64,000 nt of DNA from Rhizopus arrhizus (lineage: Eukaryota; Mucoromycota; Mucoromycetes; Mucorales; Rhizopodaceae). The stretch lies in NCBI GenBank assembly GCA_024220505.1, contig JAKZZE010000031.1:1-64000 (forward strand), in the 5' to 3' direction. Position numbers and translations under genes: made by a program. Within the stretch, counting starts at the first letter, position 1, and every line of letters starts with the position of its first letter. Positions 26,020 to 46,807 of the stretch are shown piece after piece. The notes below the pieces were generated by a model. That model was not told the DNA's origin. It did not search any database and saw only the letters and a list, made by a program, of their open reading frames with translations.

Positions 26020-26154
26020 ATTACCTAGAATAGATGAATGCTTAGAAAGACTTCATAATGCTAAACATTTTACTTCATTGGATCTCACTAATGGTTTCCA
26101 TCAACAAAGATTGTCTGAAGCTGACTCAGCAAAAACGGCTATAAGTACCAGATA
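26020..26154 (+). pseudogene. G2 RT, middle fragment
   Basis: Resumes the G2 pol frame after G7 with LPRIDECLERLHNAKHF, then TSLDLTNGFHQQ (RT motif A) and KTAISTRY, and ends at the TA target of T2. The rest of RT (including the catalytic xxDD box) and all of RNase H are missing beyond T2. Confidence 0.85.
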
Positions 26155-27793
26155 CAGTAGGTCAAAAAATTGCTGCAAGGAATCCATTTTTCTCAGTTTT
26201 TGTAGCGTACATCCTGTCACAATGGTACAAACTGCTTCTGTTTCTACATAGTAGATTTCCTACATGTCTTGAAAAATCCGAAAGAGTTTAAGCCCCATTG
26301 GATAAGTATTGAAGGAAGTATGAGGCGCGCAATTTGAAAATTTGAAAAAACGAAAATTTGAACGAAATGGGTTTGTTTATTAATATTTAGTTGGTCCTCC
26401 TTTTTTATTAATAACCTCTTGAATTCTTGCCGGCATGCTATCGATATACCTTTGGCAAAGTTCTTTATCAAATTCATTCCATGCTTTTTCTACTCGTTCC
26501 CAAAGCTCATCCGTATTCTTTGCTCTACGTTCGTAACAGCTGAGCTTTAAATTCAGTTGATGCCATACATGTTCTATTGGATTTAAGTCCGGACTTTGAG
26601 CTGGCCAATCGCTAATATAGCGCACTTGATGATTATCTAACCAGGCTATTGTGGATTTTGCCTTGTGCTTTGGATCATTATCATGCTGAAAGTAAATGTT
26701 GGACCAGTTGAAATTGTAGTACTCCATAGTATCACGAAGTGTAGTGTCTAATATATGCTGATAAACATCCGCGTTCATGTTTCCATCGTAAATTTGACAA
26801 GCATATCCTGGTCCTTCAGATGTTATGCAGCCCCACATCATCAACTTGCCGCCTCCATGCTTGACTGTAAACTCTAGATGATGCGGTTGAAGAGGATCAC
26901 TTGGTCTTTTCCAATAATACTTACAACCATCAGAGCCCCATACGTTGATCTTGGTTTCATCAGAAAAGACGACTTTTCGCCATTCTTCCACTGTCCAATC
27001 CTGGTGCTTCTTGGCCCATTCTAATCGATGCTGCATATGAGCTTTTGTCAGAAACGGCTTCTTTTTTTTTATTGAAGAATGGAACTCCATTGATTTCAGT
27101 ACCTTAATTGCTGACTGGTATGAGATAGCATAGCCAAGTTGAACCAGCTCCCGGTGTACCTCTTTGGCAGTCTTTAGAACCCCTTCAATGACTTTTCTTT
27201 TGATTAGCCGCTTCGTCACTTTGGAGACTAATGTAGGTCTACCAGCTGAGCCCATTGTCCTATTTGAAAACAACCGCCTAGAGTATCTACTAACAGTTGA
27301 TTCATGTACTCCAACCTCCTTAGCAATATCGTACGTTGATGTGGATCCAGTTAATGCTTGCTTGAGATCGTTTACTTTTTCTTCTGGCAGTCGTTTAGGC
27401 ATGCGATTGGTAATAAGGTAAAAAAGAGAAATAATTTAAATAAGAAAATTTAAAATTTAGGATAAAGGAATTGTAAGCGCTTTTATATACTGGCAACATT
27501 CTAATCATGTCAAGAATGTGAAAAATTATGATAGCAACCGGTTGGGTCGTATTAAAATTTGTTATTCCAAACATATGTAAACAAGTAAAAAATGCCGGAT
27601 GTTTATAAAATTCCCTTTAACAATATCAAATTCCACCAATAACTATTGCCCATATCAGATAATCGACGAATAAATGCCCCTTCTAGTGAGGTACAAACAA
27701 TCAATGTTTGAGATAGTTTCATGCAGTATCCATAGACAACCAGCTGTAAAACCGGTATTTTGCAATTCCTTGCAGCAATTTTTTGACCTACTG
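26155..27793 (-). mobile_element. Tc1/mariner element T2
   Basis: 1639 bp, TA on both sides (26153-26154 and 27794-27795). Perfect 29 bp terminal inverted repeats start CAGTAGGTCAAAAAATTGC. The two flanks are not adjacent parts of the G2 pol gene: RT lies on the left, and the region just before the integrase zinc finger lies on the right. Confidence 0.93.
26380..27402 (-). CDS. Tc1-like transposase (T2)
   Basis: 340 aa, uninterrupted. N-terminal HTH (VGVHESTVSRYSRR), AGRP linker and second HTH (ISYQSAIKVLKSM). The catalytic core has VVFSDETKINVWG, FQHDNDPKHKAK and SPDLNPIEHVW. By my count 35 residues separate the second Asp and the Glu, one more than classic Tc1 (DD34E). All three acidic residues are present, so the protein could be active. 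A lysine-rich KKKK stretch in the middle could serve as a nuclear signal. Confidence 0.93.
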   Translation of the reverse strand: MPKRLPEEKVNDLKQALTGSTSTYDIAKEVGVHESTVSRYSRRLFSNRTMGSAGRPTLVSKVTKRLIKRKVIEGVLKTAKEVHRELVQLGYAISYQSAIKVLKSMEFHSSIKKKKPFLTKAHMQHRLEWAKKHQDWTVEEWRKVVFSDETKINVWGSDGCKYYWKRPSDPLQPHHLEFTVKHGGGKLMMWGCITSEGPGYACQIYDGNMNADVYQHILDTTLRDTMEYYNFNWSNIYFQHDNDPKHKAKSTIAWLDNHQVRYISDWPAQSPDLNPIEHVWHQLNLKLSCYERRAKNTDELWERVEKAWNEFDKELCQRYIDSMPARIQEVINKKGGPTKY

Positions 27794-28932
27794 TATCCTC
27801 ACAAGATAAATGGCCAGCTAAGGTTAAGGATGAATTAATTAAAAAGCAACATCATTTTATCATTAAAGATGGCAGTGTATACAGAAAAGAAAAGATTCCA
27901 AAAATTGAAAAATATGAAGAATGGAAATTTATACCTTTCGCCAAAAGAGCTGATTTAGTTGATAACTTCCACGTTGGATATGGTCACTCGGGTAAAACCA
28001 CTGTATACAATCTTATGAAGTCAAGAGTTTGGTGGCCAAGAATGAAAGAAGATATTGACACTTGGATTTCAAGATGCCCACAATGTCAAATGGCTGCTTC
28101 TCCTGACAAGATGGCTCATCATGCTCCTATGAAACCACTAGAAGTTCCCCGTGCGTTCTCTCGTTGGCATTTGGACTTCATTGGTGAGCTACCAACAACA
28201 AAAAATGGCAATCGTTGGTTATTAATGGCTGTGGACTACACTACCAATTGGCCAATTGCGAGGGCGTTAAAAGATGCTACGGGTGAAGAAATCGTGAAAT
28301 TCATATATGAAGAAATAGTGCTCAGATTTGGTTGTCCTGATGAAATCATAACAGATAGGGGTGCTAACTTCATGTCAAAAATTGTCAAACAGTATATAAA
28401 GAAGATAAAGAGCAAACACAATTTTACTAGTGCTTTTCACCCTAGGACAAATGGAAAATGTGAACGATTAAACCAAACATTCAAAAAAAATGTTGATCAA
28501 ATATGTTAAAGGCGAGGTCCATAGTTGGGATGAATACGTTGACGCTTCATTATTTGCCTGTAGAATCAGAAAGCATACCACAACTGGATTTAGTCCCTTT
28601 TTCTTGACTTATGGTGTTGATCCCCACATTCCTGGTGACTTCCATCGTCCTTTTATGAGTGAATTCGTAGAACAAGATGCAGAATTGATATCACAAGACA
28701 TCCTAACTCGCATGCGTGCTCTTAGAGAAAAGCGATTTTTAGCAGAAGAAAGGCTTCGCAAGCAAGCTCAGATTGACAAGGCTCGGTGGGACTCTTTACT
28801 CAAAGACTCAACAGTACAAACTTTCAACATTGGCGACTACGTATTAATGCGACATGAAAGCAAGAAAGGCTTAGAATTTCAATGGATGGGTCCCTACAAG
28901 GTGTTAAAGAGAAACTTAGACTTCAATACATA
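27794..28932 (+). pseudogene. G2 integrase, main part
   Basis: Inserts the DNA copy into the host genome. The linker (KDELIKKQHHFIIKDGSVYRK) and zinc domain (HVGYGHSGKTTVYNL ... CPQCQ) are followed by the catalytic core: HLDFIGELPTTK, ITDRGANFMSK and PRTNGKCERLNQTF. At 28483-28490 a run of eight A adds one base and shifts the frame. The second frame (KYVKGEVHSWDEYVDASLFA to MGPYKVLKRNLDFNTY, GPY/F module) continues to T4 at 28932 and resumes after T4 at 32189. The frameshift plus insertions leave no functional Pol. Confidence 0.87.
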
Positions 28933-29298
28933 CAGTGACCCGCAAAACTGTCCCAATGTTTCGTAATTTTCTCTTCTAGGGCTTGTATCACCATAGTTGT
29001 TAAGCTAATGTACACCTTATTGTATATCATTCGATAGCCAAAATCTTGTACTACCAAAAAAAGTAAAGCAAAAACAAATTCAAACCGCGCAGACGGAGAT
29101 AGAGGGGATAGAAAACAAGCGGTGCATTGGGACAGTTTTGCGGCACTTTTGAAAAAAAACAAAAAACGATGAAATAGCGACCCACAAGTTGTATAGATGC
29201 ACCAAACTGCTTACAAATGTGCACTGTACGTCTCGAAGTCGAACTTTACTCACTGCTGAAGTTTTAAACTCCTACTGATTTATTACTCGCTCATTATA

Positions 29299-30897
29299 CA
29301 GTGCCCCACAAAACCCTTCAAGTGTTTTGCTTTTTTTCGTTTTTTGCTTGTCACGAAGCATTGAGTACTACAATTGGTAGCATGCTATACCTTATTTGAA
29401 AGCTACGGTGGTAGGGTATTTGGATAATGTTTAAACTCCGAGATCCATGCAATGTCCGCGGAGTAATGACACTTTAAAAACAGACACACACTTGAAGGGT
29501 TTTGTGGAATTTTTGTTTAACAACAATTAATATTTAGGATGTCCTCCTTTTGCATTGTAAACTGCTTTAATGCGTTTAGGCATACTTTCTATGAGTTTTT
29601 GACACTCATTCTGAGTAATTGACTCCCAAGCATTCTCTACTCTTGACCATAATTCGAGCATTCCGTCAGGCTGCTTTTCATATTGTAATAAACGACGGTT
29701 TACGATTGACCATAGGTTCTCAATAGGATTTAAGTCAGGAGAGTGAGGTGGCCATCTTGATACAGTAATATTATTGTTTTCCAGTCATTCAGAGACTTTT
29801 TTGGCAGTATGGATACTAGCATTGTCTTGCTGAAATATAATATCTTCTTTTTGAAGCTCATACCAATCAATTGTTTTCATTAATTCATCTTCCAAAATAC
29901 CAATATAAACGTCAGAATTAATGCTTCCCTTGATATTCGATAGGTATCCAACGCCATACCATGTTAAACAGCCCCACAGCATCAATGAACCTCCTCCATG
30001 CTTGATCATATGCTGAACCTGAAAGTCTTTTAACTTGTCACCATTTGTCCAAGTCCATTGTAAACCATCTGAACCAATTCTATTCACTTTAGTTTCGTCG
30101 CTGAAAATGACCTTTTTCCAGTCCTCGATGGTCCATGATAGATGCGCACGTGCAAATTCATATCTTTTCTTCATACGGTGCTTAGTCAAAGGTAGGACTT
30201 TAGGCTTATGAATTGCTGCATAACCTGATTCTTTTAAAAAACGTCTAATAGTCTCAGCACTAATATTTTCATCATCTTCTAACAACTTTCTAGCAGCGTC
30301 TGAAGCATTTTTGTAATTGCCAGAGTTGAAGTTTCGCAAGATTCGACGACCTAGTAATGTCGAGATTACGAATGGCCTGCCTCCATTAGTTTTGAAATCT
30401 CCCAAATCATGGTTTTTTTCGGATTTTTGAAATAGTTCCAGTACTGACACCAGTCTTCGTTGATACTTCTTCTCCAGAAACTCTTTCTTTAAGAAGTTGA
30501 ACGATTCTGTTCTGCATGTCATTGCTAATTGGTCGCATGTCACTTAATTAGGTTATGTTATAAAAAAAGGCAAACAAAAAAATAGAAAGTTGTAAATAAA
30601 CAAAACGTTTTACACAAAAAGTTGACAAGTCACATTTTTGTGACGTTTATGATGATTTTTACGAAATTAACATGAGATTTTTTAAATTCCACAAAACCCT
30701 TCAAGTGTGTGTCTGTTTTTAAAGTGTCATTACTCCGCGGACATTGCATGGATCTCGGAGTTTAAACATTATCCAAATACCCTACCACCGTAGCTTTCAA
30801 ATAAGGTATAGCATGCTACCAATTGTAGTACTCAATGCTTCGTGACAAGCAAAAAACGAAAAAAAGCAAAACACTTGAAGGGTTTTGTGGGGCACTG
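29299..30897 (-). mobile_element. Tc1/mariner element T3, nested in T4
   Basis: 1599 bp, TA at 29297-29298 and 30898-30899, ends CAGTGCCCCACAAAACCC. Its terminal inverted repeats are about 218 bp. An outer CCACAAAACCCTTCAAGTG recurs inverted at the inner edge (29489-29507). It sits 9 bp before the T4 transposase start codon. Confidence 0.93.
29527..30538 (-). pseudogene. Tc1-like transposase pseudogene (T3)
   Basis: Start at ATG 30536-30538 (MRPISNDMQNRIVQLLKE, an HTH domain) in one frame. A shift near 30420 leads into the frame with GGRPFVIS, VIFSDETKVNRIGSDG and FQQDNASIHTAK. A TGA at 29785-29787 follows; the frame then continues with LENNNITVSRWPPHS, PDLNPIENLWS and the end GGHPKY. The TGA takes the place of a Trp conserved in most of the related copies here. 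The catalytic residues are present (DD34E spacing), but the gene is broken twice. Confidence 0.88.
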
Positions 30898-30906
30898 TAT
30901 CTCAAC

Positions 30907-31938
30907 ATGAAACAAGTCTCTCAAGATACCGTTGTTCAAGCAATTTCTTTACTTCAACAAGGTAAGTCGGTTCGGGAAGTGGAAAGGGTTACTGGTTTAA
31001 GCAAGAGTACTGTTGGGAGACTCCGAAAATCCCATTGCTTTGGACTTGGAAAGCCAAAAGGCGGTCGACCCAAGTTATTATCTGCGGCTGATGAACGCTA
31101 TTGTGTGCGCCAAGTGACCAAAAACCGCATATCCAGTGCAACAAAGGTGGCTAAGGAGCTAGAAAAAGACACTGGAAGAAAAGTAAGTGTCGATACCGTG
31201 TGCAGAACCCTTCGTAAGGCCGGTCTTGGTGCAATTGAGAAGCCGAAGAAGCCTTTGCTTAGTGCGAAAAACATTCGCAAGAGGCTTTCTTGGTGTATGG
31301 CTCACAAGGACTGGACAGTAGATGACTGGAAACGCGTTGTTTGGTCGGACGAGACAAAAATCAACAGATTTAATTCGGATGGACGCACCTGGGCATGGAT
31401 TCGATCAGGGGAAAGCCTGAAATCCCATCATGTCAAGATGACCGTTAAACACGGTGGAGGCAATATCATGCTGTGGAGTGCCATTACCTATGCTGGGGTT
31501 GGTTGGATGTGCAAAATCAATGGTAATATGGATAAAACACTGTACAAAGAGATTTTGGAGGATGAACTGGAGCGTACGATTGAGTTTGGAACCAATAAGC
31601 TAGGGCTAGAAAGACATCAGGTGATTTTCCAACATGACAATGATCCCAAACATACGTCCAAATTAGTCAAAGAATACCTTGAACAGCAATCCTACAACAT
31701 CCTAGAGTGGCCAGCACAGTCTCCTGACTTAAACCCAATTGAAAATATGTGGTCATTGTTAAAGAGAAGGTTGAATGATTATGAAACAGCACCAAAAGGC
31801 ATGAATGAACTATACGAACGAGTAACTAAAGTTTGGTACGACTTAATGAAGCCGGAAGAGTGCCAAAAAGTCATAGAAACAATGCCTAAGCGTATAAAGC
31901 AATGTATCAAGAATAAAGGACGCTGGACTGACTATTAA
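30907..31938 (+). CDS. Tc1-like transposase (T4)
   Basis: 343 aa from ATG 30907 (MKQVSQDTVVQAISLLQQG). An upstream ATG at 30835 lies in T3 sequence, so 30907 is chosen. HTH (KSVREVERVTGLSKSTVGRL), GGRPKLLS linker, second HTH, catalytic core VVWSDETKINRFN, FQHDNDPKHTSK, SPDLNPIENMW with 34 residues between the second Asp and the Glu. No lesion in the coding sequence. T3 interrupts the leader 9 bp upstream, which probably removes the native promoter. Confidence 0.92.
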   Translation: MKQVSQDTVVQAISLLQQGKSVREVERVTGLSKSTVGRLRKSHCFGLGKPKGGRPKLLSAADERYCVRQVTKNRISSATKVAKELEKDTGRKVSVDTVCRTLRKAGLGAIEKPKKPLLSAKNIRKRLSWCMAHKDWTVDDWKRVVWSDETKINRFNSDGRTWAWIRSGESLKSHHVKMTVKHGGGNIMLWSAITYAGVGWMCKINGNMDKTLYKEILEDELERTIEFGTNKLGLERHQVIFQHDNDPKHTSKLVKEYLEQQSYNILEWPAQSPDLNPIENMWSLLKRRLNDYETAPKGMNELYERVTKVWYDLMKPEECQKVIETMPKRIKQCIKNKGRWTDY

Positions 31939-32188
31939 TGTCAAATAAATAAACCATTTTGTTTTTTTTCAAAAGTGCCGCAAAACTGTCCCAATGCACC
32001 GCTTGTTTTCTATCCCCTCTATCTCCGTCTGCGCGGTTTGAATTTGTTTTTGCTTTACTTTTTTTGGTAGTACAAGATTTTGGCTATCGAATGATATACA
32101 ATAAGGTGTACATTAGCTTAACAACTATGGTGATACAAGCCCTAGAAGAGAAAATTACGAAACATTGGGACAGTTTTGCGGGTCACTG

Positions 32189-32345
32189 TATCAAGTTCAA
32201 GAAATTGCAGGAAAAACATATGCGTCTTGGGTACACACTGATCGACTTCATCCTATCAAACATGATGGTTCTTCCATTAATAAGCCTTGGTATATTCCTA
32301 GAATGGCTCGAAATACATCAGAATCAGATAGTATCTCTACTCAGT
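32189..32345 (+). pseudogene. G2 Pol C-terminus
   Basis: With one TA of the T4 target removed, the second integrase frame runs straight on (TYQVQEIAGKTYASWVH ... RLHPIKHDGSS ... SDSISTQ) to TAA at 32343-32345. It is the tail of the integrase; no chromodomain is visible. Confidence 0.8.
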
Positions 32346-32416: not shown

Positions 32417-32594
32417 TGTCGTATATTTTATTCTCATTTTGGATAGTGTTACAAATATTCCTTTTTTGATACTTCTACCTACAGTTGTCATCCGCAGTAT
32501 AGTCGCAGCATAGTCGCAGCAATGTCGCAGTACTTTCAATATTAACATTATAACAATATATAACAACATCACCACCGCAGCAAATGTAAAATAG
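32417..32594 (+). repeat. G2 3' LTR, first part
   Basis: Preceded by a purine run GGAAAGGGGG (PPT). It matches the first 178 bp of the 5' LTR, then is cut by G3 at the ATAG target (32591-32594). The remainder is at 40628-40740. Confidence 0.88.
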
Positions 32595-33144
32595 TGTAAT
32601 TTTTTTGTTGCTTCAATGGCTTGTAAGAATTAACGGTTTTGAAATAGAGTAAAGTTGACGAAAGTGAATAAAAAAAAATAAGAGTTGGGTAAAGTATTGG
32701 TATTAAATTCGTTTGTAAGTGACCACCAGATCTTGTTAAGTAGATCAAACTTGCTTGTAATAAGGTAACTTGATAAGAGTTTTAAGAATGTTTACAATGA
32801 AGATAATTGACTTCAAGGGACTTGTCTTGCTTGTATTTTAAGAGTATTATACCAAAAGATTCAGGGATAAAGATACTTGATTTATTGGATAAAATATATT
32901 TAAGATAAGTAAAGTTAAAATATATATGTCAAGAGAAGTGAAGTAAAATAAAAATAAAAACTTGTCTATTTTATAGACAAAGAAAAATAAAGTTTCATTT
33001 TGATATAAGGTTTGATTTCAATATAAGGTTTGATTTCGATATAAAGTTTGATTTTGAAATAAAGTTCAAAAAAAGAATAAGGTTCAAAATTAAAAATCAC
33101 AAACCGCAGCCATTGCTGGTGTTTATGTTGTAATCTTCGTTACA
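32595..33144 (-). repeat. G3 3' LTR
   Basis: 550 bp, ends TGTAACGAAG ... AAAATTACA in element sense. The first 48 nt encode the C-terminus of ORF3. Near its start are four tandem 18-20 bp units around AATATAAGGTTTGATTTC (plus-strand 32993-33070). It carries the core motif GATCTGGTGGTCACT shared by the other LTRs. Confidence 0.94.
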
Positions 33145-33903
33145 GATGCCCGCTACAACCGCTTGCTCGTCCTCGAGCATTGAGACTCTTCCCCAGTCAT
33201 CCAGTTTTCTTATTTTTTTATACAAATTTTTATGAATCGTGCATCCATTCAACACAAACCTGAGTGCCTCGTTCCTAGCTGCAACATAGAGTTGTATACA
33301 TCTTTCATTGTTCCTTGGCTGTTCAAACTTGATGTGGCTCCAATCCACTATTGTTGTTGCCAGTCTATTTAGTACCTGTTCTCGGATATGTTCAAATTTT
33401 TCTTGTTCCTTCTGGTAGTGTTGTGACAATTCAAATTCTTCTTTGATGTTTTCTTCATAGAGAACAACAATGGGTTTCATGTCGGGCGTTTCCCAAGACC
33501 AGTTCTCAAGTTCAGTAAGTATATCCTCATTATAATTTACTCCATACTCAATAGGCTTTTCATGTTTCTCTGGATTAGCAATCATATCCTCGAATTCTTC
33601 TTTGTCCACTTCTTGCTGGATTTTCAATACCAGTTTATCAATATAGTCCTTTTTGGTTATAGCCTCTTCTCCAATAAAGAACTCGAAGTTCTTTAAGCCC
33701 TCTTCATTCTCCATGAAGCTAATATACATCTCCAAACCTTCTCTAAGACCATCTGCCCTTTTTGCAACATACAAAGTCTTGAAGTAGTCTTGTAATAACC
33801 ATTTGATATAATCAGCGGCATTGCCGTTGCCTTCTTGAATGTCTTTGGCCATTTTTTCGACAGTAATCTTGGCTTGTTCCTTGAGGTATTCTGTTTGGTC
33901 CAT
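33097..33903 (-). CDS. G3 ORF3, unknown protein after integrase
   Basis: 268 aa from ATG 33901-33903 (MDQTEYLKEQAKITVEKM), stop TGA at 33097. I do not recognise the family. It is acidic and Glu/Lys-rich with long predicted helices (NLKIQQEVDKEEFEDM-like stretches, HYQKEQEKFEHIREQV). It has no signal peptide or membrane span, so it is not an obvious envelope protein. One Trp/Tyr-rich part (LTELENWSWETPDMKP) and a C-terminal half with VDWSHIKFEQP and IQLYVAARNEALRFVLNG look like a folded domain. The last 15 codons lie in the LTR. It is intact in a young element, which suggests use. It could be an accessory retroelement factor or a captured host gene. Confidence 0.8.
   Translation of the reverse strand: MDQTEYLKEQAKITVEKMAKDIQEGNGNAADYIKWLLQDYFKTLYVAKRADGLREGLEMYISFMENEEGLKNFEFFIGEEAITKKDYIDKLVLKIQQEVDKEEFEDMIANPEKHEKPIEYGVNYNEDILTELENWSWETPDMKPIVVLYEENIKEEFELSQHYQKEQEKFEHIREQVLNRLATTIVDWSHIKFEQPRNNERCIQLYVAARNEALRFVLNGCTIHKNLYKKIRKLDDWGRVSMLEDEQAVVAGICNEDYNINTSNGCGL

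Positions 33904-33997: not shown

Positions 33998-34036
<39 letters not shown>
33998..34036 (-). repeat. Poly(A) tract after G3 integrase stop
   Basis: About 36 consecutive T on the plus strand (A in element sense) directly after the integrase stop codon and about 95 nt before the ORF3 start. Such a run at a gene end inside an LTR element is unusual and may mark a junction made with a polyadenylated RNA. Confidence 0.7.
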
Positions 34037-34038
<2 letters not shown>

Positions 34039-35383
34039 GAAACAGTTCATTCGTTTCCTTGTCCAAAACCAAACTTGAAACATTTCTCTCATTTTCAGCG
34101 TTCCACATTGTATTTGGTATAACGTACGGTTTCAGTCTATTCCCATGAACTCTTCTTATCCGAGTATCATTTGGATTCGTATTTTTTATGTGATAAGTTC
34201 CTTTTCCTAAATTATTTTGAATGATGTAAGGTCCTTCCCATTTGTCTTGTAACTTTCCAGACCAAGATGTAGACATGTAATCTTTGTACAGGAGAACCAT
34301 ATCACCGAGTCTGAAAGGGGGCTTCAGTTCTTTTCGTTCATCTAAGATCTTGTTCTCTATAGCTTTCTTTTGAGCAGCCTGAGTTTGCTTAATGGCCTGT
34401 GCTGATTGCTCACGTACCCAATTAAGATTATGAATTTGGTGAGTGGTCCTGTGCCATAACACTGTTTCAAATTTGTGAGAGCTTTTCTCAAATATTCGGT
34501 TGTCTATATCAAACGGCGTTTTTGGTTCATAGCCATACATTAAGAAAAATGGCGACTGCTTTGTCGTAGCTTGTTTAATGGAACGATATGCAAATAAGGT
34601 AGCTGGTAGATAGAGATCCCAGTCTTCCTTTTCAGTGTCTGATCGTTTTTGTAGAATTTGACCAAGTGTTCGATTGAATCGTTCAATCAGGCCATTACTT
34701 TGTGGGTTGTACGGTGTTGTAGTCTTGTGAATAATAGAATAAGCTTGGCAAACTTTGCGTACCAAACCACTTAAGAAAGGTTTTCCGTTATCAGTAACCA
34801 TGATGGTTGGACATCCGTGTCTACAAATAATATCTTCGTATAGAAATAGAGCAATCTCTGAAGAAGTCTGAAATCGTAACGGTCTTGCTTCAACATATTT
34901 TGTGAGGTAATCAATTGCTGCGACAATATAGCGGTGTCCTGATCTTGAGGTTTGTACATGTTTCACGTCCAATGCTACTCTATCAAAAGGTTTTATGGAA
35001 ACGGGAACTGGATAAAGTTCTTCTTTCAATGATTTTTTCCCAAATACTTGACATCTAGAACACGTTTTGACGTATTCAAAAATATCCTTCGCCATGTTGT
35101 CCCAATAGTACCGAGTTGCAATTTTATGTAAGGTATTATTGTATGCTAAGTGTCCACCTAGAGGATGTTGATGATACGCATCCATCATTTCTTGGGCTTC
35201 TTGCTTGTTGAGAACCTTTCGTATGGTTCCATTTTCCGTATTGTATCTATATAATGTGTCTTTGTACAAAGTGAAATTAGGGGATTCCCTAATGAGGAAT
35301 TTTTGTAAGCTTCTTGTTTCATCTTCTGGAATTTGCATAGTTTGCAAATATGTTGCCATCTGATCGATTTTTCGTTGTTCCAT
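34034..35383 (-). CDS. G3 integrase as a separate ORF
   Basis: 449 aa from ATG 35383 (MEQRKIDQMATYLQTM). It starts with the RNase H-integrase linker (SPNFTLYKDTLYRYN), followed by the HHCC zinc domain (HQHPLGGHLAYNNTLHK ... CSRCQ). The catalytic core has VALDVKHVQ, MVTDNGKPFLSG and NPQSNGLIERFNRTL (D, D, E). A C-terminal GPY/F-like module (DKWEGPYIIQNN) and RVHGNRLKPY follow. No chromodomain. It lies 239 nt after the RNase H stop and in a different frame, so it must be made from its own start, by splicing or by reinitiation; the sequence does not show which. Confidence 0.92.
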
Positions 35384-35622
35384 TTTTTGATATATTATTA
35401 TTTTGTGTTACTGTTTTGAATTTTTGCAATCTTATTGTTTCAGGATTCTTTTTGTTGATGTGGAAATTTTTTTTTTCTGCTTAATTTGGTTTTGTACTGT
35501 TTTTAATGAATTTTTCTGGATTATTTATTTCAACTACCCCTCCCTGCCTCCATGTAGTTTGATAAAAATATAAAGTTGATAATATATACACGTTGTTAAT
35601 TAATTGTAAATGTTGAGTTTTT
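35384..35622 (-). other. G3 gap between RNase H and integrase, with purine tract
   Basis: Non-coding in the pol frame. It includes GGAGGCAGGGAGGGG (plus-strand complement near 35534-35550), the best polypurine tract of the whole element. The sequence just before the 3' LTR is not purine-rich. The tract could act as a central or former terminal PPT. Confidence 0.55.
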
Positions 35623-38600
35623 CTAGTATCCAAGTCGAGATAAAAAGTCGGCGCTTTCGTTGACTCTTCCAGGTCGATACTTCACCTCGAATTCATATTC
35701 TGATAAGATAGTAATCCATCTGGCGATTATTCCAGTGGGGTTTGGCGTCTTTAGTAACCCATTTAGAGCCGAGTGATCAGTAAGCACTGTGAACTTTTTT
35801 CCAAGTAGATAGGGACGGAATAATTTTACTGCCCATATGACTGCCAAACATTCTAATTTAGTGGGAGCGTAATTCGATTCAGTTGACTTGAGGCCTCGAC
35901 TTGCATAGACAATTGGGTGTTCATGACCATTTTCATCCAATTGAGTCAATATAGCACCAAGTCCTAATTTGGATGCGTCGGTTACTAGTATAAATGGTTT
36001 GTTGAAGTCAGGTCTTGACAAGATAGGTGCAGTAGTAAGTAATTTCTTTAATGTTTCAAATGATTCAGTAGTCAAGCTTGTCCAAGGGATTTTCTTTGTG
36101 GTTTTCGTTTGATCATGCAAAGGTCTTGCAATAGCAGCAAAGTTTTTAATAAAACGTCTGTAATAGGATGCTATTCCAAGGAATCCTCGAACTTGTTTAA
36201 TTGTTCTGGGTTGTGGATATTCAGCTATTTTTTGAATTTTACTGGGGTCTGTTTGCAATCCTTCTTTCGTAACGATATATCCAAGAAATTTAAGATGGTC
36301 CTTGAAGAAGAAACACTTTTCTGGATTTAATTTGAGATTCGCTATTTGGATGCATTGAAACACTTGTTCTAAATGTTGCAAATGATCTTGATGATTGAGA
36401 GAATATACGTTTAGGTCGTCAATGTAAGCGACTAAACACTTGTTGATAAGTGGCCGAAAACATAAATCTATTAATCGTTGAAAAGTTGCTGGGGAATTTA
36501 CAAGACCCATTGGCAGTGTGTTATAATGATACGTGCCAAACTTTGTCGTGAAAGCTGTTAGTTCTTTACTGTCTTCTTCCAGGGGAACTTGATGAAATCC
36601 AGCTCGCATATCCAAAGCTGAGAAAACTTTTGCCTTGCCTAATGTATCCAGCAAATCATCAATGCGAGGTAAGGGATAGGCGTCTTTCTTTGTAACTGAA
36701 TTTAGCTTTCTATAATCTATCACCATTCTGTATTCGCCATTCTTCTTTTTTACTAATATCACAGGGGCTGCCCAGGGGCTATTTGATGGAGCAATTACAC
36801 CCAACTTGCAATACTTATCTAATTCTTTTTGCAGATGCTCAGTCTCGATAGGACTCATGCGATAAGGTCGATGACTTATAGGCATAGCATCTTCTTTTAT
36901 CGTTATCTTATGCTTTATCAAGTTTGTGTATCCGATTGTGTTATTGTCCCAATCAAATATATTCTCGTACTTCTTTAGTAACTTCTGTAAGCATTGTTTG
37001 ATATCTTGATTTATTTCTCCGATTTCAAGTTTCGTATATTTGTCTGGTTCTAGCAGCGTGCCTTCTTCATTTTTTTCTTTATTATTTGATTCAGACATTT
37101 CCATCACACACAAGTGAGGATTCGTGTCAACATTATATGCTTGTACTATGGAATCTTCCTGTGGATTGATCTTTTCAATGATGCCGATTTCTTCATCAGG
37201 GTCCAATAATATATCTTTTGATGATCGATTGTATATTCGAATCTCTATACTTCTTCGATTTGTGATCAGATTTAAACAAGAGTCAAAATATCCCATGGCA
37301 TCCATTATTTTAGGGTTTGTTATTTCCAAGTTATATATTATATCCTTCCTTTCGTTCTTCAACTTTCTGATCCATATTGTTTTTGAAGTATTTGATGCTA
37401 TAGTCAATCCATGTGAAGGAGCTTTCAGTAGCATGTCATTTCCTTGACTTAATACTTTTATGTCGTCTTCTTTATCATTTTCCAATAATAGAAGCGATTC
37501 GTCTTCTTCATCTTCTAATTCTTCTTCTGCCGATTCTTCTGAGCTGTCTTCAGATTCTTCGTCTTGATCTGTGCTATCGTCATCATGTTGTGGCTCTGCT
37601 TCAAAGCGTACATGTTTGGTTTCCTTTGAGTTTGTTAGGCTGATAGGATGTTCATACTTCTGAGTATAGCTTGAGACTTTTGGCAATGTCGTATTTTTTC
37701 TTAAAAAGGATATCTCTAATTCAGCTTTCTTGTTTTTATATGCCACCTTTAATGTTGAACTATTGAAGTCAATTTTGGCTTTTGCTCTATTTAACCAATT
37801 GTTTCCAATGATAAGTGGATTTGGACAAGAGGGTAAGACTTCTACTGTGCATGGAATGATCATGTTGTCCTTGACACATATAGGTACGTCATATATAATT
37901 CCTAAAGCAGGCTGTTTGGTTCCATTTCCTAAGGTGAATATACTTTCAGAGGCAGCATCAATATATAAACCAAGTGTGTCAGCGAGAGCTTTAGACATGC
38001 ATGTTTTTGCTGCACCACAATCAATCAAGGTCTTGATAGATTTGTCTCCAATACTAACTTTAGAATATACTGCTGTGGTATTTATATCCTCTTCTTCTAT
38101 AACTGCCATAGTTTCTTCCGGATTGGTGACTTCAACAGGGATTCGTATGGGACGGCAAGCTGCGGCCATATTTCTTCGTAACTTAGGTGCTGCAACCATA
38201 AGGTCTCCAACAGTTATATCTGCTTTCTTATTTAAGACGTCCGACACAATGTCATAATTTAATGGAGGTGCCTTCGTTTTTCTTTTTGGTTTCTTGACCG
38301 TTCTGCTAGTTTGCATTATTCGTTCTGTTTCCATAGCTTCGGGTTGACGTGTGACAACAGGCTGATGTGAAACCAATGGTTGTTGTGTGATTATGGGTTG
38401 ATGCGTAATGATAGGTTGTGTAGTAGTAACATCATTTAATTTACCCTTGGCTTTTGTGGTTGATCTCCTAACTCTTTCTCGTGTGCCTTTGCTTGGTTTT
38501 TCGTATGGAATGCTTGTAGTGACTTCAGGTGGGTACTCTGGTCTTACAGCTGCATATAAATCGTGTGTAAAGGGTGGTGAATAAGTTTCGCTTTGAGTGA

Positions 38601-38701
38601 GGAGCGCATTGAGATTGTGGGGTTGATTATTAATGGTTTTGTTATATTTTTGGTTATTCGATTGACCATTACTTTCATTTTGAAAGCAACCGAACCAACT
38701 A
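35623..38701 (-). CDS. G3 protease-RT-RNase H
   Basis: The frame is open far upstream inside gag, but recognisable Pol begins near the gag stop. Aspartic protease: KTLIDCGAAKTCMSKA (DCG instead of DSG/DTG) and PLIIGNNWLNRAKA. An acidic Asp/Glu/Ser stretch (plus-strand 37480-37600) separates it from RT. RT: VILVKKKNGEYRMVIDYR, FSALDMRAGFHQ, LPMGLVNSPATFQ and the catalytic AYIDDLNVY. RNase H: VTDASKLGLG, LECLAVIWAVK and TDHSALNGL. It stops at RLGY, exactly where the G1 pol stops. The frame is +1 relative to gag; the gag stop follows TCA-AAA-AAC. No lesion is seen. Confidence 0.93.
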
Positions 38702-39934
38702 GTTTTTTGACTGGTTAGGTTGTTGTGTTTGAGGCTGTTGCGGGAGCGTTCTGTTATATTGCGGACGGTAAGTTTGATTATTAAAGTTATTTCTGTTTCG
38801 TCCTTGATTGCTATAGTCTTGTCTTCCGTAATTATTATCATTACGTTGGTAATCATTGTTATTATAAATATTATTATTGTAGTCGTTATTATTGTGACCA
38901 TTATTGTTGTAATCGTTATTGTTATTTTGGTGTTGATTCTGATAATTATCATTGTAGCGATTACGACGATTGTAATTTCTAACAGAGCTTTGATACTGCT
39001 GTTGATTACCCAATTCATTTCGGATGGTTTGTTGAATAAGATTGACCAGATCCTGTTGATGATTATGTTGACTAGGACATGTTCCATTGTTCCTTTGAAC
39101 TTGATGAGGATAGCTTTGGGCATGATAATTATTACGAGTGATCTCCAATGTTGATAGTTGGTTAGGACCAGTTACAATTTGAGGGTTAGGCATTACAGTG
39201 TTAACCATTCCGTAAGGATGTAAGTTAGAGATTGGGATTACTTGAGAAGGCCTTTCGTTTGCATCAATCAACTCTATATTATGATCATTTGATGGGTATC
39301 TCTGATGATAAACACCATCGTCATGATATATGAGAGCGTTGTTTACATTTCTTGGTATGAATGGGTTGTCGACCATTGCGATCTTGCGTGGACGATTTGC
39401 GTTCCACCATCCTTCTGCGTGGTTTAACCAATCTTGAAATGTTCTAGCACTGCTTTGTATACAAAATTGTTTGATATCTCTTAATAAACCTGCGCGAAAG
39501 CGGCTTTCGATTACGGCTTCACTAGTAATGTTGGCCAAATCAGCGGCTTCACGTAATCTTGAAAGGAATATTTGAGGATGTTCTTGATCTCCTTGGATCA
39601 TATCATTGAATTCCAATTCATAATTCTGAATTAATTCAGGAGTAATATAGTGACTTTTCAAATGTTCCATAGCTTCATCGTAAGTCACTTGAGGATGATT
39701 CTTGAGTATAGTTTTTTCAAAGTAGATTTTAGCAGCTCTACGTAATTGAGATTTGAGGATAGCGAGTTTGCGGTTGTCACTATGTGTGTTGCTGAGTACA
39801 AGGTAGGAATCCAGTAGCTCTTGAAAATGACGGAAGTCTTCGCCTTCATAGCCATAGAATTCGATTAATTTAGGACGATATCCTTGAATTTGGTTGCTGT
39901 TTTGCACCAACGCGATAGGTTCTGTAGTTGCCAT
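38699..39934 (-). CDS. G3 Gag
   Basis: 411 aa structural protein. The N-terminal part has a gag core (RPKLIEFYGYEGEDFRHFQE, LAILKSQLRRAAKIYF, IFLSRLREAADLA, FQDWLNHAEGWW). The C-terminal third is low-complexity and rich in Asn, Gln, Tyr and Arg (YNDNYQNQHQNNNNDYNNN type). It contains no CCHC zinc knuckle; basic Arg/Asn repeats probably bind RNA instead. It ends at TAG right after AAA-AAC. The ATG follows the 5' LTR and primer site by about 120 nt. Confidence 0.92.
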   Translation of the reverse strand: MATTEPIALVQNSNQIQGYRPKLIEFYGYEGEDFRHFQELLDSYLVLSNTHSDNRKLAILKSQLRRAAKIYFEKTILKNHPQVTYDEAMEHLKSHYITPELIQNYELEFNDMIQGDQEHPQIFLSRLREAADLANITSEAVIESRFRAGLLRDIKQFCIQSSARTFQDWLNHAEGWWNANRPRKIAMVDNPFIPRNVNNALIYHDDGVYHQRYPSNDHNIELIDANERPSQVIPISNLHPYGMVNTVMPNPQIVTGPNQLSTLEITRNNYHAQSYPHQVQRNNGTCPSQHNHQQDLVNLIQQTIRNELGNQQQYQSSVRNYNRRNRYNDNYQNQHQNNNNDYNNNGHNNNDYNNNIYNNNDYQRNDNNYGRQDYSNQGRNRNNFNNQTYRPQYNRTLPQQPQTQQPNQSKN

Positions 39935-40053: not shown

Positions 40054-40071
40054 CCCTCGTAGTGACCACCA
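40054..40071 (-). other. G3 primer binding site (candidate)
   Basis: In element sense TGGTGGTCACTACGAGGG starts 2 nt after the 5' LTR and is identical to the G1 site. It would pair with a tRNA ending in TAGTGACCA-CCA. Neither tRNA in this window fits. Confidence 0.6.
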
Positions 40072-40073
40072 AA

Positions 40074-40623
40074 TGTAATTTTTTTGTTGCTTCAATGGCT
40101 TGTAAGAATTAACGGTTTTGAAATAGAGTAAAGTTGACGAAAGTGAATAAAAAAAAATAAGAGTTGGGTAAAGTATTGGTATTAAATTCGTTTGTAAGTG
40201 ACCACCAGATCTTGTTAAGTAGATCAAACTTGCTTGTAATAAGGTAACTTGATAAGAGTTTTAAGAATGTTTACAATGAAGATAATTGACTTCAAGGGAC
40301 TTGTCTTGCTTGTATTTTAAGAGTATTATACCAAAAGATTCAGGGATAAAGATACTTGATTTATTGGATAAAATATATTTAAGATAAGTAAAGTTAAAAT
40401 ATATATGTCAAGAGAAGTGAAGTAAAATAAAAATAAAAACTTGTCTATTTTATAGACAAAGAAAAATAAAGTTTCATTTTGATATAAGGTTTGATTTCAA
40501 TATAAGGTTTGATTTCGATATAAAGTTTGATTTTGAAATAAAGTTCAAAAAAAGAATAAGGTTCAAAATTAAAAATCACAAACCGCAGCCATTGCTGGTG
40601 TTTATGTTGTAATCTTCGTTACA
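40074..40623 (-). repeat. G3 5' LTR
   Basis: 550 bp, matching 32595-33144 base for base as far as I could read. It is followed by the ATAG target duplication and the rest of the G2 3' LTR. Confidence 0.94.
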
Positions 40624-40627
40624 ATAG

Positions 40628-40763: not shown

Positions 40764-40772
40764 GATAAAGAG

Positions 40773-40846
40773 CGCTCCTAGGTGGGCTCGAACCACCAAC
40801 CTCCTGATTAACAGTCAGACGCGCTAGCCAATTGCGCCATAAGAGC
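40773..40846 (-). tRNA. tRNA-Asn (GUU)
   Basis: A 74 nt cloverleaf on the minus strand. The acceptor arms GCTCTTA and TAGGAGC pair fully with one T-G. The D-arm is GGCGCAATTGGCTAGCGC, the anticodon GTT is at 40810-40812, and the T-arm is GGTGG TTCGAGC CCACC. The discriminator is G. No intron. Confidence 0.93.
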
Positions 40847-42753: not shown

Positions 42754-45203
42754 CCGACATTAGACTTGGTTGTTATTACTTTTTTATAAGCTTACATTTG
42801 ACCAGTGCTTGAGCTTTCCTTTTTTTTGTTTTGTGCCTTTGGCATCTAGAGTATTCCATGAAACAAAACAAGGGAAAAAAAAAAAGAAGTTGTTTTACTG
42901 CCTTATTTCATTGTTTAAGCACCGACTGTTTTTGCAAATTTACTACTCGTTTTTTATCAGGCGCATTTTTTTTTTCCTTCTTTATTTCTTTACAAAATAC
43001 TAAATTCTTCAAAATGAACAACATCAACAACATTAAAATCGCTTGCACTTGTACCGAATGCAGCATGCATCCCGGTGGATTTAGAAGACTTGCAAAGAGA
43101 ACTGTTCTTACTCATAAGCGTCTGGACAGATTCAGAGGAAGAGGTTATAGTTTTTATTTTTTCGTATAAACGCACTCGTGTTAATGTAAAAAAAAAAAAA
43201 AAAAAAAATAGAGTCCAGAAGACAAGTAGCCGAAGTCATGCAACAACCAACAGCCGTCCTTGAAAACGAAAGTGAGCATACCACCTTTGAAGGTATATTT
43301 TCAGTCGACAAAGCATTTTACATTAGAAAGGATTTATTTATTGAACTGTATTTTACAATTTGTTAGACCACATGAATGTTGATGGAGAGAAGGAATTGAG
43401 CCACGAAGAACAGCTCAAGCATCTTTTGGTGCTCTACGTGGTTCTTTTTCAAGCAAAGTACCTCTCTGTACAAGCTGGTGAAGAATTGTTGGCCTTTCTC
43501 TCTTTCTTTGTTCGTGCTCTTGGCCATGACATGGAGATACCAACAAAGATCTCCACGGCTCGTGTCATGGTCAACTACTCGTCTGCCAGCAGTGGTGTTT
43601 CTCGTTTTCTTGTCTGTTCCCTTTGCAGAAGCGTTTACACCACGGGAAGTTTGCATGCCCGACAATGCTCTTATGTCAGGTTTGCAAACAACCCTCACCG
43701 CCAAGAACAACCATGTGGTAATCCTCTTTTTGTTGGAAGCACCGTCAAGCCTGCTCTTGAGTACCCTTACAACTCAATTTTGGAAACGTTGAAGAAGTTT
43801 TTTGCTCGTCCTGCCTTCGAGTTCCAAATTGAGCAGTGGAGAAGTAGATCGGTGGAAGAGGATGTTCTTTACGACATCTATGATGGTAGAGTTTGGAGTC
43901 AGCTTGCCGACTCAAATGCTCAGCCATTTGTCAACAAAGAAAGGTCGTTGATGGTGTCGTTGAATGTGGACTGGTTTCAGCCTAGTGACGGTATGCACTA
44001 TTCTTGTGGTGGTGTGTACCTCACTATCAACAATCTCCCAAGAAGTTCAAGGATGAAGACTTCCAACGTTATTCTTGTTGGTATGATTCCTGGTCCTGGC
44101 GAGCCCACGGATGACCAAATTCAAAACTTCTTGCGGCCAATGGTGGATGAGTTGATTGTCCTGTACGATGGTGTGGTTATACCCACCTATCAATGCCCAA
44201 ATGGTATGCTTGTTCGTGTTGCTTTAATGTCAGTCAATTGCGACATACCTGCAGCGCGTAAAGTAGCCGGGTTTATGGGGCAGTCAGCTCATAAGGCTTG
44301 TAACAAATGCTCAACTGTCTTTCCTAGAATCAGTACTGGTGTGAATTCATCCAAGCCTGATTTTTCCAACTTTGATGATGAACACTGGATAATGAGGGAC
44401 AGTATTCAACAAAGACAAGAAGCATTTGACTGGCTGAATGCAACTCACATCACTCAGCAAAGAGCCTTACAGACGAGCACGGGGAGTAAATGGAGTGAGC
44501 TCCATAGACTTTGTTATTTTGATGTGGTGAGATTGACAGCTGTGGATCCAATGCACAACTTGTTTCTTGGTACACCAAAAAGAATGATTGAAGTTTGGGA
44601 AGGCCGTGGTTTGCTCACTGTAAATGATTTCAAGGCAATGGCTGATGAATCTAGCTCAGTTATCATTCCTTCTCAATACTGCAAGATATCTAGATGTATG
44701 TAACAAATATAAAAAACTTTAATTCATGTTCAAGCTAACAATTATTTTTTTTTTAAAAAAAAAAAGCCAAGATTGAAAGTTGTTTCAGTAACATGAAATC
44801 AGACGAGTGGAGAACGTGGTGCGTTGTGCTGTCGCCATTTCTCTTGAAACAGAAACTGGCAAGAGAGCACTTTGACAATTGGATGCTGTACGTTGAAGCG
44901 GTGAAATTGGTCACTGGGCCCCTTGTTACAAATGAAGACATAGACATAGCCCATTCACTCTTTAAAAATTTTGGCAAGACTTGTGTTCGACTATATGGAA
45001 ACTCTATGGCAACACCAAACATGCACATGCATATGCATCTCAAGGAATGCTTTTTGGACTTTGGTCCTTCTTATGCCTTTTGGCTTTATGGTTTCGAACG
45101 CCTTAATGGTAACATAAAAAATATAAACATTAATTTTAAGACAGGCTTCGAAACAACCTATGCAATTATGTTTATCCAAAATGTTCATACACAAGACCTC
45201 ATA

Positions 45204-46807
45204 CAGTAAGGGACAAAATCAGTCCGTTTTTTTGGTTTTTTCGCAATGCCTCGCCGGGAATTAAACTTAGGGCTTCGCTTTGCTGACGAAACATTTGCAC
45301 GCAAGCTAGACAAAATTATTGGTGTAACCTAATTGCTTCTACCACCATTTTCTCTGTAGTTATGGCGGAAAAAGTGATTTTCCGTGATTGTTGCTAACGC
45401 CCGATTTTGCATTAGACACCATATCTCCAGAAACAGTCACTGGACTGACTTGAGATTTAGTTTGGTACGTCTTATGACGTCAGTGAACGCTAACGTGTTC
45501 TCATATTTTAGCTTCTTTTATTTTTTTACATTTTTTCTTTTTCCTCATTTACCTCATCTCAGATTAGCCAAACACGCCATGACAGCAAAGAATGCCGACA
45601 AACATGCCCAAATTGAAAACATGTTGAACCACTCCATTCCATGGGATGTAACTAAAAAAAACGTAGGCTGTGGAAAGTCCATGATTCGAAGAATTTCAAG
45701 GAAAACCAAGTTGCAGTCAAAAAATAGCGCGGGTAGACATCGTTTACTCACACCTAGGGAGGAAACCAAAGCAGCTAGAGACATAAGACTTGGCTTATCT
45801 AAAAGCGCAGCCGATGCTTCCTTTGGTGTTAAAAAACCAGATCAAATGGTCAATCCAAAAACAATTGCTCGTACTTTGAAACGCAAAGGTCTAAAATCGA
45901 CCAAGAAAAAGACGGTACTTCCACTTAATAATGACAAGCAAAAGGCACGATATGATTGGGCAAAGGCTCATAAAGACTGGTCCGAGACTGATTGGGAACG
46001 CGTTGTCTTTTCTGATGAGACAAAGATCCAAAAAAGAGGGTCTAATGGCCTAGAATACGCTTGGAAAGAGGATAATGCACCTTATCGAGACCATCACTAC
46101 AAAAAGAAACATGCTTATGGAGGAGGCGGGATCATGCTTTGGAGTTGCATAACTATACATGGAGGGGGCTACATGTCCTGGCTACAAAGTAATGTAAATT
46201 GTGAGCTATACACGTCAGTACTTGAGGAGGAATACAAGGAGACATTGAAGTATTATGGCCTGCAAAGTAAGGACATGATCTTTCAACAAGATAATGCAAG
46301 CATCCATTGTGCTTCAGCTCCTTCAAAATGGTTCCAAAAGAACAAGATTAAACTCCTGAGTTGGCCAGCATACTCCCCTGACCTTAACCCAATTGAAAAT
46401 GCATGGTCCATGCTTAAAAAGAAGGAACAGATGACAAGACCACCTTCTTCTGTGGTTGAGACTGACCAAGCATTTTTTGACCGGGTTTCGAAGCTTTGGT
46501 ATGACCTAGCAACTCCAGAGTACTGTAGAAACCTTATTCACTCTATGCCCCGTCGAGTTCGGGACGTAATCCAGCGTAAGGGCCGCGATACCAAGTACTA
46601 ATCGAAATTCAAAAAAATAAAAATACATTATTTTCAATATATCTTCTTATAACATGGCGGAAAATAAAAAATACCATTTCCGACAAATATTGTCAACTTT
46701 GTTGAAGGAAGAGACAAATTTTTCGTCAGCAAAGCAGAGCTCTAAGCTTAATTCCCGGCGAGGCATTGCGAAAAAACCAAAAAACGGACTGATTTTGTCC
46801 CTTACTG
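45204..46807 (+). mobile_element. Tc1/mariner element T7a
   Basis: 1604 bp, TA target on both sides (45202-45203, 46808-46809), ends CAGTAAGGGACAAAATCAGT. Terminal repeats of about 100 bp or more are imperfect. A near-identical second copy, T7b, lies at 63051 to the right edge in the opposite orientation. Confidence 0.94.
45579..46601 (+). CDS. Tc1-like transposase (T7a)
   Basis: 340 aa from ATG 45579 (MTAKNADKHAQIENML); an upstream in-frame ATG at 45384 would add a hydrophobic leader with no family match. HTH (KNVGCGKSMIRRISRK), GRHRLLTP linker, second HTH with KSTKKKTVLP. Catalytic core VVFSDETKIQKRG, FQQDNASIHCAS, SPDLNPIENAW with 34 residues between the second Asp and the Glu. Ends GRDTKY. 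No lesion seen, so this copy could supply T7b. Confidence 0.92.
   Translation: MTAKNADKHAQIENMLNHSIPWDVTKKNVGCGKSMIRRISRKTKLQSKNSAGRHRLLTPREETKAARDIRLGLSKSAADASFGVKKPDQMVNPKTIARTLKRKGLKSTKKKTVLPLNNDKQKARYDWAKAHKDWSETDWERVVFSDETKIQKRGSNGLEYAWKEDNAPYRDHHYKKKHAYGGGGIMLWSCITIHGGGYMSWLQSNVNCELYTSVLEEEYKETLKYYGLQSKDMIFQQDNASIHCASAPSKWFQKNKIKLLSWPAYSPDLNPIENAWSMLKKKEQMTRPPSSVVETDQAFFDRVSKLWYDLATPEYCRNLIHSMPRRVRDVIQRKGRDTKY

Follow-up and report, generated by a model that had tools for sequence, protein, structure and literature searches.

An additional gene downstream of integrase in a clade of Rhizopus Ty3/gypsy retrotransposons found on the 3′ side of tRNA genes

According to a 2018 review, retrotransposon insertion behind tRNA genes had been found only in dictyostelids (PMC5911963). 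There, Skipper-2, a Ty3/gypsy chromovirus, is described 7–136 bp downstream of tRNA genes across species (PMC5006619), and TRE3 lies 40–150 bp downstream of tRNA genes in the same orientation (PMC5911963). The Ty3-type elements DGLT-A.1-3 of P. pallidum are reported to possess an integrase extension of 264–333 aa, poorly conserved and with no known relatives (PMC5006619), a feature likened by description to the gene considered below, while the LTR retrotransposons of bdelloid rotifers carry extra ORFs after pol, of several kinds and common to different element types (PMC5408684). Yeast Ty3, also of the Ty3/gypsy group, targets tRNA genes. Ma et al. (2009) reported for R. oryzae that Ty3-like LTR elements make up 8% of the assembly and are often co-localised with tRNA genes, with 239 tRNA genes in strain 99-880 (PMC2699053).

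The whole stretch analysed here (64,000 nt, contig C25:1-64000 of a searched genome of 50.26 Mb; hereafter the window) holds a full Ty3/gypsy element on the minus strand in the order gag, protease-reverse transcriptase-RNase H, integrase (IN) and ORF3, and all features of it given with coordinates below are on that strand. The 5′ LTR (40074..40623) and 3′ LTR (32595..33144; TG...CA, read from the sequence as TGTAAC...TTACA) are each 550 nt and 100% identical, and the element is flanked by the target-site duplication ATAG, also read from the sequence (32591..32594 on the left, 40624..40627 on the right). TG/CA LTRs with a target-site duplication, together with the Pfam domain order protease, RT, RNase H, integrase, identify it as Ty3/gypsy. 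Two nucleotides past the 5′ LTR lies the putative primer-binding site TGGTGGTCACTACGAGGG (40054..40071), whose 18 bases are identical in all seven stretches printed, the window among them. The first frame (38699..39934, 411 aa) is presumed from its position to be gag and had no Pfam match above cut-off; it is overlapped by the protease-reverse transcriptase-RNase H frame (35623..39171; Pfam gag-asp_proteas, RVT_1 and RT_RNaseH). Integrase (34034..35383, in the open frame 35407-34034; Pfam Integrase_H2C2 and rve) is a separate ORF with its own ATG, and no chromodomain was found in it by Pfam scan at E <= 1 of this one lineage. After a tract of 36 A in the IN-ORF3 gap (33998..34033), the length of which differs among copies, comes ORF3 (33097..33903), encoding 268 aa plus stop (M-D-Q-T...N-G-C-G-L). 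A tRNA-Asn gene (40772..40846), on the same strand and 148 bp upstream of the 5′ LTR, is the presumed insertion target.

Throughout 34034-35623 and in related loci, the integrase and RT-RNase H cistrons are separate, and A-tracts occur in each of the two gaps between cistrons; an integrase cistron apart from RT-RNase H is unusual for Ty3 elements. The sequence-only reading of the window had called the frame under study a third ORF: it is indeed an extra ORF after integrase but, since IN is itself separate from RT, it is strictly the fourth cistron. The RT-IN gap also contains a conserved purine-rich element, TACATGGAGGCAGGGAGGG (35538..35556), conserved among related loci as CTACATGGAGGNNGGGAGGG(G)TAG; its core has 91 exact matches in the genome versus 0 for the reversed pattern. 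This element was present in 15 of 21 stretches (two copies each in L048 and L050) and was not seen in the remaining ones (L035, L036, L040, L043, L045 and L047). A hairpin at this site was considered and rejected, as nine sequences gave no compensatory change and an energy near 0, so that the element more likely acts through its primary sequence, for instance as a central primer tract, than by folding as RNA; judged from sequence, it is possibly a central polypurine tract.

Elsewhere in the window, nested elements that have inverted ends and contain mariner-like transposase frames were recognised by eye at 26151-32191, comprising 26151-27797 (33-nt ends) and 28930-32191 (235-nt ends), the latter enclosing 29296-30900 (217-nt ends). 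They adjoin or lie within a second Ty3 element, whose IN frames are at 27787-28966. A further mariner-like transposase frame (45378-46601, by eye) is preceded by a large unidentified frame (43345-44703).

ORF3 had been described from the sequence as a 268-aa, acidic and helix-rich protein without a membrane span, intact after IN and ending within the LTR, and each of these points was borne out by the translation, by the identity of the LTRs over 550 nt and, for the helices, by structure prediction. The window protein has a pI of 4.75 and a maximum 19-residue Kyte-Doolittle hydropathy of 0.69; across 21 copies the pI is 4.3–5.7 and the maximum 19-residue hydropathy 0.22–0.97, and by this measure none of the 21 has a membrane span or hydrophobic stretch. 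When the ORF3 stretch was shuffled 2000 times with dinucleotides preserved, the longest open frame averaged 62 codons and never exceeded 142, versus the 268 observed. The AlphaFold2 model (11 sequences; pLDDT 70.1, pTM 0.41) is predicted to be helical and in two parts, residues 1–110 (33574..33903; pLDDT 62–85 by blocks of ten) and residues 143–240 (33184..33477; a long helix, then two short ones, from the model and the alignment), with low confidence for the stretch joining them and for the tail. Within the C-terminal part W188, H190, P196, Y206, L214, K230, D235 and W237 are invariant among 12 aligned members, as are G252, C254 and the first Met (window numbering). The model of a relative about 22% identical had a similar helix order and was weak (pLDDT 62.5, pTM 0.32).

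Profile and structure searches with ORF3 gave no confident family or fold match. No Pfam model exceeded the cut-off for the window protein and, across 12 members, the best E was 0.0066 with no family matching more than two; there was no Pfam match to a DNA-binding or chromatin-reader domain. A PDB sequence search with the single protein returned only chance-level hits (best E 0.35), and a fold search of PDB and viral structures with the window model found nothing at E <= 0.001. The best row of the PDB profile search, a stretch of terminase (E 0.0062), was likewise dismissed as chance-level, its aligned residues 78–169 lying outside the conserved C-terminal motif. Derivation of ORF3 from a piece of IN or of gag was rejected (HHalign probability 0.1% in both cases), the gag comparison being a rough test with a profile built only from L040, L044, L045, L049 and L050, after a filter that caught 11 of 21 stretches, two of them ORF3-like by length. 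Protein searches yielded 15 distinct database proteins, of which the 11 with a named source are all from Rhizopus (R. arrhizus, R. delemar and R. microsporus, the nearest being from R. arrhizus and R. delemar) and four are unnamed (lgn, ena); no relative outside Rhizopus was found in these databases. A literature description of this ORF was not found among titles and abstract starts in open-licence PMC.

Other copies besides the window's have an intact ORF3, which is a general feature of a clade. When the genome was searched in six frames, with 143 of 191 candidates scored, 141 ORF3 matches were obtained; the open frame is 200 aa or longer for 125 of them and shorter for 16. Three further copies equal the window copy in score (100%, whole length), others are 93–100% identical, some 63–80% and the rest 19–46%. 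Among 93 scored integrases of this Ty3/gypsy clade (of 703 candidates), 87 are followed within 2.6 kb, on the same strand, by an ORF3 match; of the other six, one is at a contig end, two have a match at 2,673 bp and at about 5 kb, respectively, and three are unexplained. Copies lacking ORF3 or carrying it in decayed form are therefore the minority, with 87/93 integrases keeping a match and 125/141 matches open. Twenty stretches of 9.5 kb, chosen for an ORF3 match so that ORF3 is present by construction, were fetched and, with the window, make up the 21 copies compared here. A recognised IN end is present in 20 sequences (window included); ORF3 begins 75–202 nt after it in 18, and for L047 and L048 more than 3 kb separates ORF3 from the end of the closest recognised IN frame. 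Elements were also observed repeated at a spacing of about 7.5–7.8 kb (G000:C4:12814-22660, C37:2375676-2385504 and C16:416020-433952), and L034 has a 1315-nt repeat at a spacing of 7515, which suggests tandem arrays with shared LTRs.

In six of the 93 cases a single open frame of 809 codons joins IN and the ORF3 match, the two always 661 codons apart and in frame (from coordinates and frames only); the open frames around two more ORF3 matches with the same score as these copies are shorter, at 456 and 351 codons. Among 18 loci with a short IN-ORF3 gap, the longest A-tract measures 7–69 nt, and frame offsets of 0, 1 and 2 all occur. A fixed frameshift joining IN and ORF3 is consequently ruled out for the separate-ORF copies, the offset taking all three values, and the varying offset and A-tract length make independent starts on one RNA likely. 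Many IN and ORF3 AUGs in the fetched loci have a purine at −3, and ORF3 is likely to be translated from its own AUG on a polycistronic RNA. A database protein (P0005) that apparently joins IN to ORF3 across the gap was set aside, since by our reading such a junction would be out of frame in the window copy.

Comparison of 13 ORF3 pairs by the Nei-Gojobori method, with the last 25 codons excluded, indicated that ORF3 is under purifying selection. Six of the eight measurable pairs gave dN/dS of 0.048–0.145 (window-L036, 0.086; L036-L037, 0.048; L040-L042, 0.109; L040-L046, 0.145; L045-L047, 0.083; L044-L050, 0.143), with L036-L037 and L044-L050 near saturation (dS 1.9 and 2.7). The other two gave 0.30 and 0.51, on seven and three differences, and five pairs have no value (three saturated, two lacking synonymous change). 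In the six pairs with enough change the ratio is thus far below 1, which, together with the predominance of open frames of at least 200 aa (125/141), agrees with the earlier view that ORF3 is not debris; the debris reading was accordingly rejected.

Despite this, ORF3 shows the lowest conservation among the three proteins examined side by side. Between distant lineages (eight representative loci) identity is 22–32% for ORF3, versus 69–76% for IN and 63–68% for RT, ranges that leave out the close pairs window-L038, window-L039, L038-L039 and L044-L050, as well as the RT of L038 and L040, which is too short. For L044-L050 the values are 49% (ORF3), 85% (IN) and 70% (RT), and for window-L039 they are 42%, 90% and 78%. 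We also observed that IN (69–76%) exceeds the whole RT frame (63–68%) between the distant lineages represented by the window element, L039, L044, L045, L049 and L050. Greater conservation of IN than of RT is the reverse of the expectation for Ty3 elements.

Along the element, identity between some copies drops in ORF3. In 200-nt bins, the window copy is 94–100% identical to L037 and L038, compared over the part from within gag onward, up to the region of the IN end, 74–87% in ORF3 and 92–94% in the LTR. In 100-nt bins versus L038, identity is 94–100% before position 7400 and 62–88% in ORF3, the first LTR bin being at 83% and the further LTR at 93–98%. Synonymous divergence in this comparison is 0.12–0.13 in IN and saturated in ORF3, a pattern that points to sequence replacement and not to accelerated amino-acid change. 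The same pattern, weaker, is seen between L040 and L042 (IN bins 97–100%, ORF3 bins 75–98%; dS 0.05 vs 0.59). Taken at the sequence level, ORF3 is swapped as a cassette between elements that are 94–100% identical upstream.

The 3′ end of ORF3 also appears to serve as a DNA signal. The 3′ LTR starts at the Cys codon of ...AGIC-NED, leaving 15 ORF3 codons and the stop encoded by the LTR, just as had been read from the sequence. In ten stretches for which both LTRs were compared, the LTR start coincides exactly with the Cys codon in the G-I/F-C motif, which is present in twelve loci; in L049 and L050 the longest repeat found started elsewhere. The 3′ motif CGAGGAC ... GGGCATC followed by TGTAAC (33139..33175) is in frame in the lineages compared, and C-GAG-NNC and GGGCATC, or close variants, recur upstream of the LTR at a fixed distance. 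The Glu site is encoded by GAG in 8/8 lineages with Glu (nine compared), whereas the ORF bodies have 163 GAA and 49 GAG; third-position G+C climbs from 0.32–0.41 to 0.50–0.75 in the last 12 codons before the LTR. These biases argue that the LTR terminus and the bases preceding it are overprinted with coding sequence, presumably where the plus-strand primer tract should lie, so that part of the apparent protein conservation at GIC is attributable to constraint on the DNA.

ARAGORN detected a tRNA gene in 10 of the 21 stretches, each upstream of the element and on the same strand, representing nine types (Asn, Val, His, Gly, Ile, Tyr, Leu twice, Ser and Asp). The distance from tRNA end to 5′ LTR is 66–171 bp in nine measured loci, the tenth (L050) having no measured distance; the other 11 stretches gave no tRNA with ARAGORN, including L041 and L049, where a 5′ LTR copy was seen. 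A genome list of 78 tRNA genes, which is partial (63 of 2878 Rfam candidates scored, and 15 from a pattern), placed a tRNA gene within 8 kb of 19 of the 93 clade integrases: 16 upstream on the same strand, none upstream on the opposite strand and three downstream on the opposite strand, two of the last being 4.5 and 6 kb from IN and perhaps not insertion targets. All 19 integrases are on the 3′ side of the tRNA gene and none on the 5′ side, so near listed tRNAs the insertions of this clade are concentrated behind the genes; the remaining 74 have no tRNA within 8 kb in this partial list of 78. As controls, 68 integrases of two other Ty3 groups were picked from 150 listed. The first group (43, mostly single-pol) gave two tRNA genes upstream on the same strand, three upstream opposite and one downstream opposite, and the second (25, in open frames of about 330–530 codons with no ORF3 match nearby) gave five upstream opposite; that is, 11 of 68 are near a listed tRNA, eight on the 5′ side and three on the 3′ side. 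An ORF3 match lies less than 4 kb from four control integrases, on the opposite strand in every case. The difference in side between the ORF3 clade and the controls gave a Fisher p of 2.8e-5, although copies are not fully independent and the ORF3 elements make up a single clade.

The two other Ty3 groups were themselves observed mostly 5′ of tRNA genes in divergent orientation (8 of the 11 that have a listed tRNA within 8 kb), and the two tRNA flanks may thus be divided among different clades. To the co-localisation described by Ma et al. (2009), the present analysis adds the insertion side, the orientation and ORF3.

We tentatively favour, as possible though not yet probable, the reading that ORF3 is a genuine fourth cistron and its product a separately made partner of integrase that helps direct integration behind tRNA genes. 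The protein would be an accessory subunit of the integration complex working beside integrase, a separately made counterpart of the C-terminal extension carried by other Ty3 integrases, and would help place new copies about 70–170 bp behind tRNA genes in the tRNA direction; the steps we infer are a physical partnership of IN and ORF3, contact with a Pol III factor and a part in site choice. This reading is favoured because ORF3 follows IN nearly everywhere, shares a frame with it in six copies, and is found in a clade whose elements take a specific side of tRNA genes. Against a targeting role, integrase alone could do it, ORF3 is acidic and has no DNA-binding Pfam match, and elements without detected ORF3 are also near tRNA genes, mostly on the other side, so that the tRNA association has one clade as its unit. 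A fuller form of the proposal, which we advance with greater reserve, is that ORF3 may be a trans-acting, exchangeable target selector that recognises Pol III genes on their 3′ side, is swapped as a cassette, shares in one lineage a frame with IN and overprints the primer tract and LTR end. The strongest rival, unlikely in our judgement, is that ORF3 antagonises host silencing or restriction, as a suppressor of RNAi or of chromatin silencing, its divergence and swapping reflecting an arms race. Its far faster divergence (22–32%) than that of RT (63–68%) and IN (69–76%), its replacement as a cassette in elements 94–100% identical upstream, its small, acidic character without a membrane span, and the RNAi control described for transposons in the relative Mucor (PMC11943222) are all consistent with such a factor; however, one open frame with IN in six copies is odd for a free cytoplasmic suppressor, and dN/dS of 0.048–0.145 in 6/8 pairs gives no sign of positive selection averaged over the gene.

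A function in particle assembly or copy-number control, as a Gag helper or self-restriction factor of which related elements gain from having different versions, seems to us less likely again. Here the model is the truncated Ty1 Gag, a self-restriction factor. The predicted helical, two-part architecture would suit this role, and cassette exchange among near-identical elements fits avoidance of cross-interference, but ORF3 has no profile similarity to gag (five loci, HHalign 0.1%, a rough test) and the frame is shared with IN and not with Gag. It is most improbable that ORF3 is kept mainly for its 3′ cis-acting DNA (primer tract and LTR terminus), with the protein doing little: GAG in all eight Glu lineages and the rise in third-position G+C before the LTR speak for such a constraint, but the dN/dS estimates are still low without the last 25 codons, so the other 202–271 codons are themselves under strong purifying selection and the cis-acting DNA is refuted as the sole explanation. 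Nor do we accept an env-like gene for cell-to-cell passage, a reading rejected as very improbable, which has in its favour the env-like position after IN and against it a maximum 19-residue hydropathy of 0.22–0.97 in 21 copies and a predicted helical structure with no membrane segment.

Should ORF3 prove to be the selector, a Ty3-type element would have its target choice entrusted to a separable protein, one for which variants and a frame shared with IN occur in nature; should it prove to be an anti-silencing factor, it would represent a new class in early-diverging fungi. In either case it is an abundant Rhizopus protein family with no family model in the libraries searched. We know of no ORF of the ORF3 kind in yeast Ty3. 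That element also differs in inserting on the 5′ side, through TFIIIB and IN (PMC5911963). The R. oryzae Ty3 elements of Ma et al. (2009) are probably a set overlapping with the ORF3-clade elements, and the text examined of that paper makes no mention of insertion side, orientation or an extra ORF (PMC2699053). TRE3 resembles the Rhizopus elements in position and orientation and differs in being a non-LTR element with APE, RT and zinc-finger domains and no integrase. DGLT-A.1-3, as described, have no tRNA preference, and their extension is part of IN (PMC5006619). The ORF3s of bdelloid rotifers are reported to include env, a GDSL esterase and a DEDDy exonuclease, with no significant departure from neutrality according to their authors (PMC5408684), in contrast to the dN/dS of 0.048–0.145 in 6/8 Rhizopus pairs. 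Skipper-2, likewise Ty3-type and behind tRNA genes, is described with a diverged chromodomain in its integrase extension (PMC5006619), whereas no chromodomain was matched in the Rhizopus integrase, which is followed instead by the separate ORF3. The Rhizopus elements form a fungal Ty3 clade that, where a listed tRNA gene is near, is positioned behind it, and that possesses an extra gene clade-wide.
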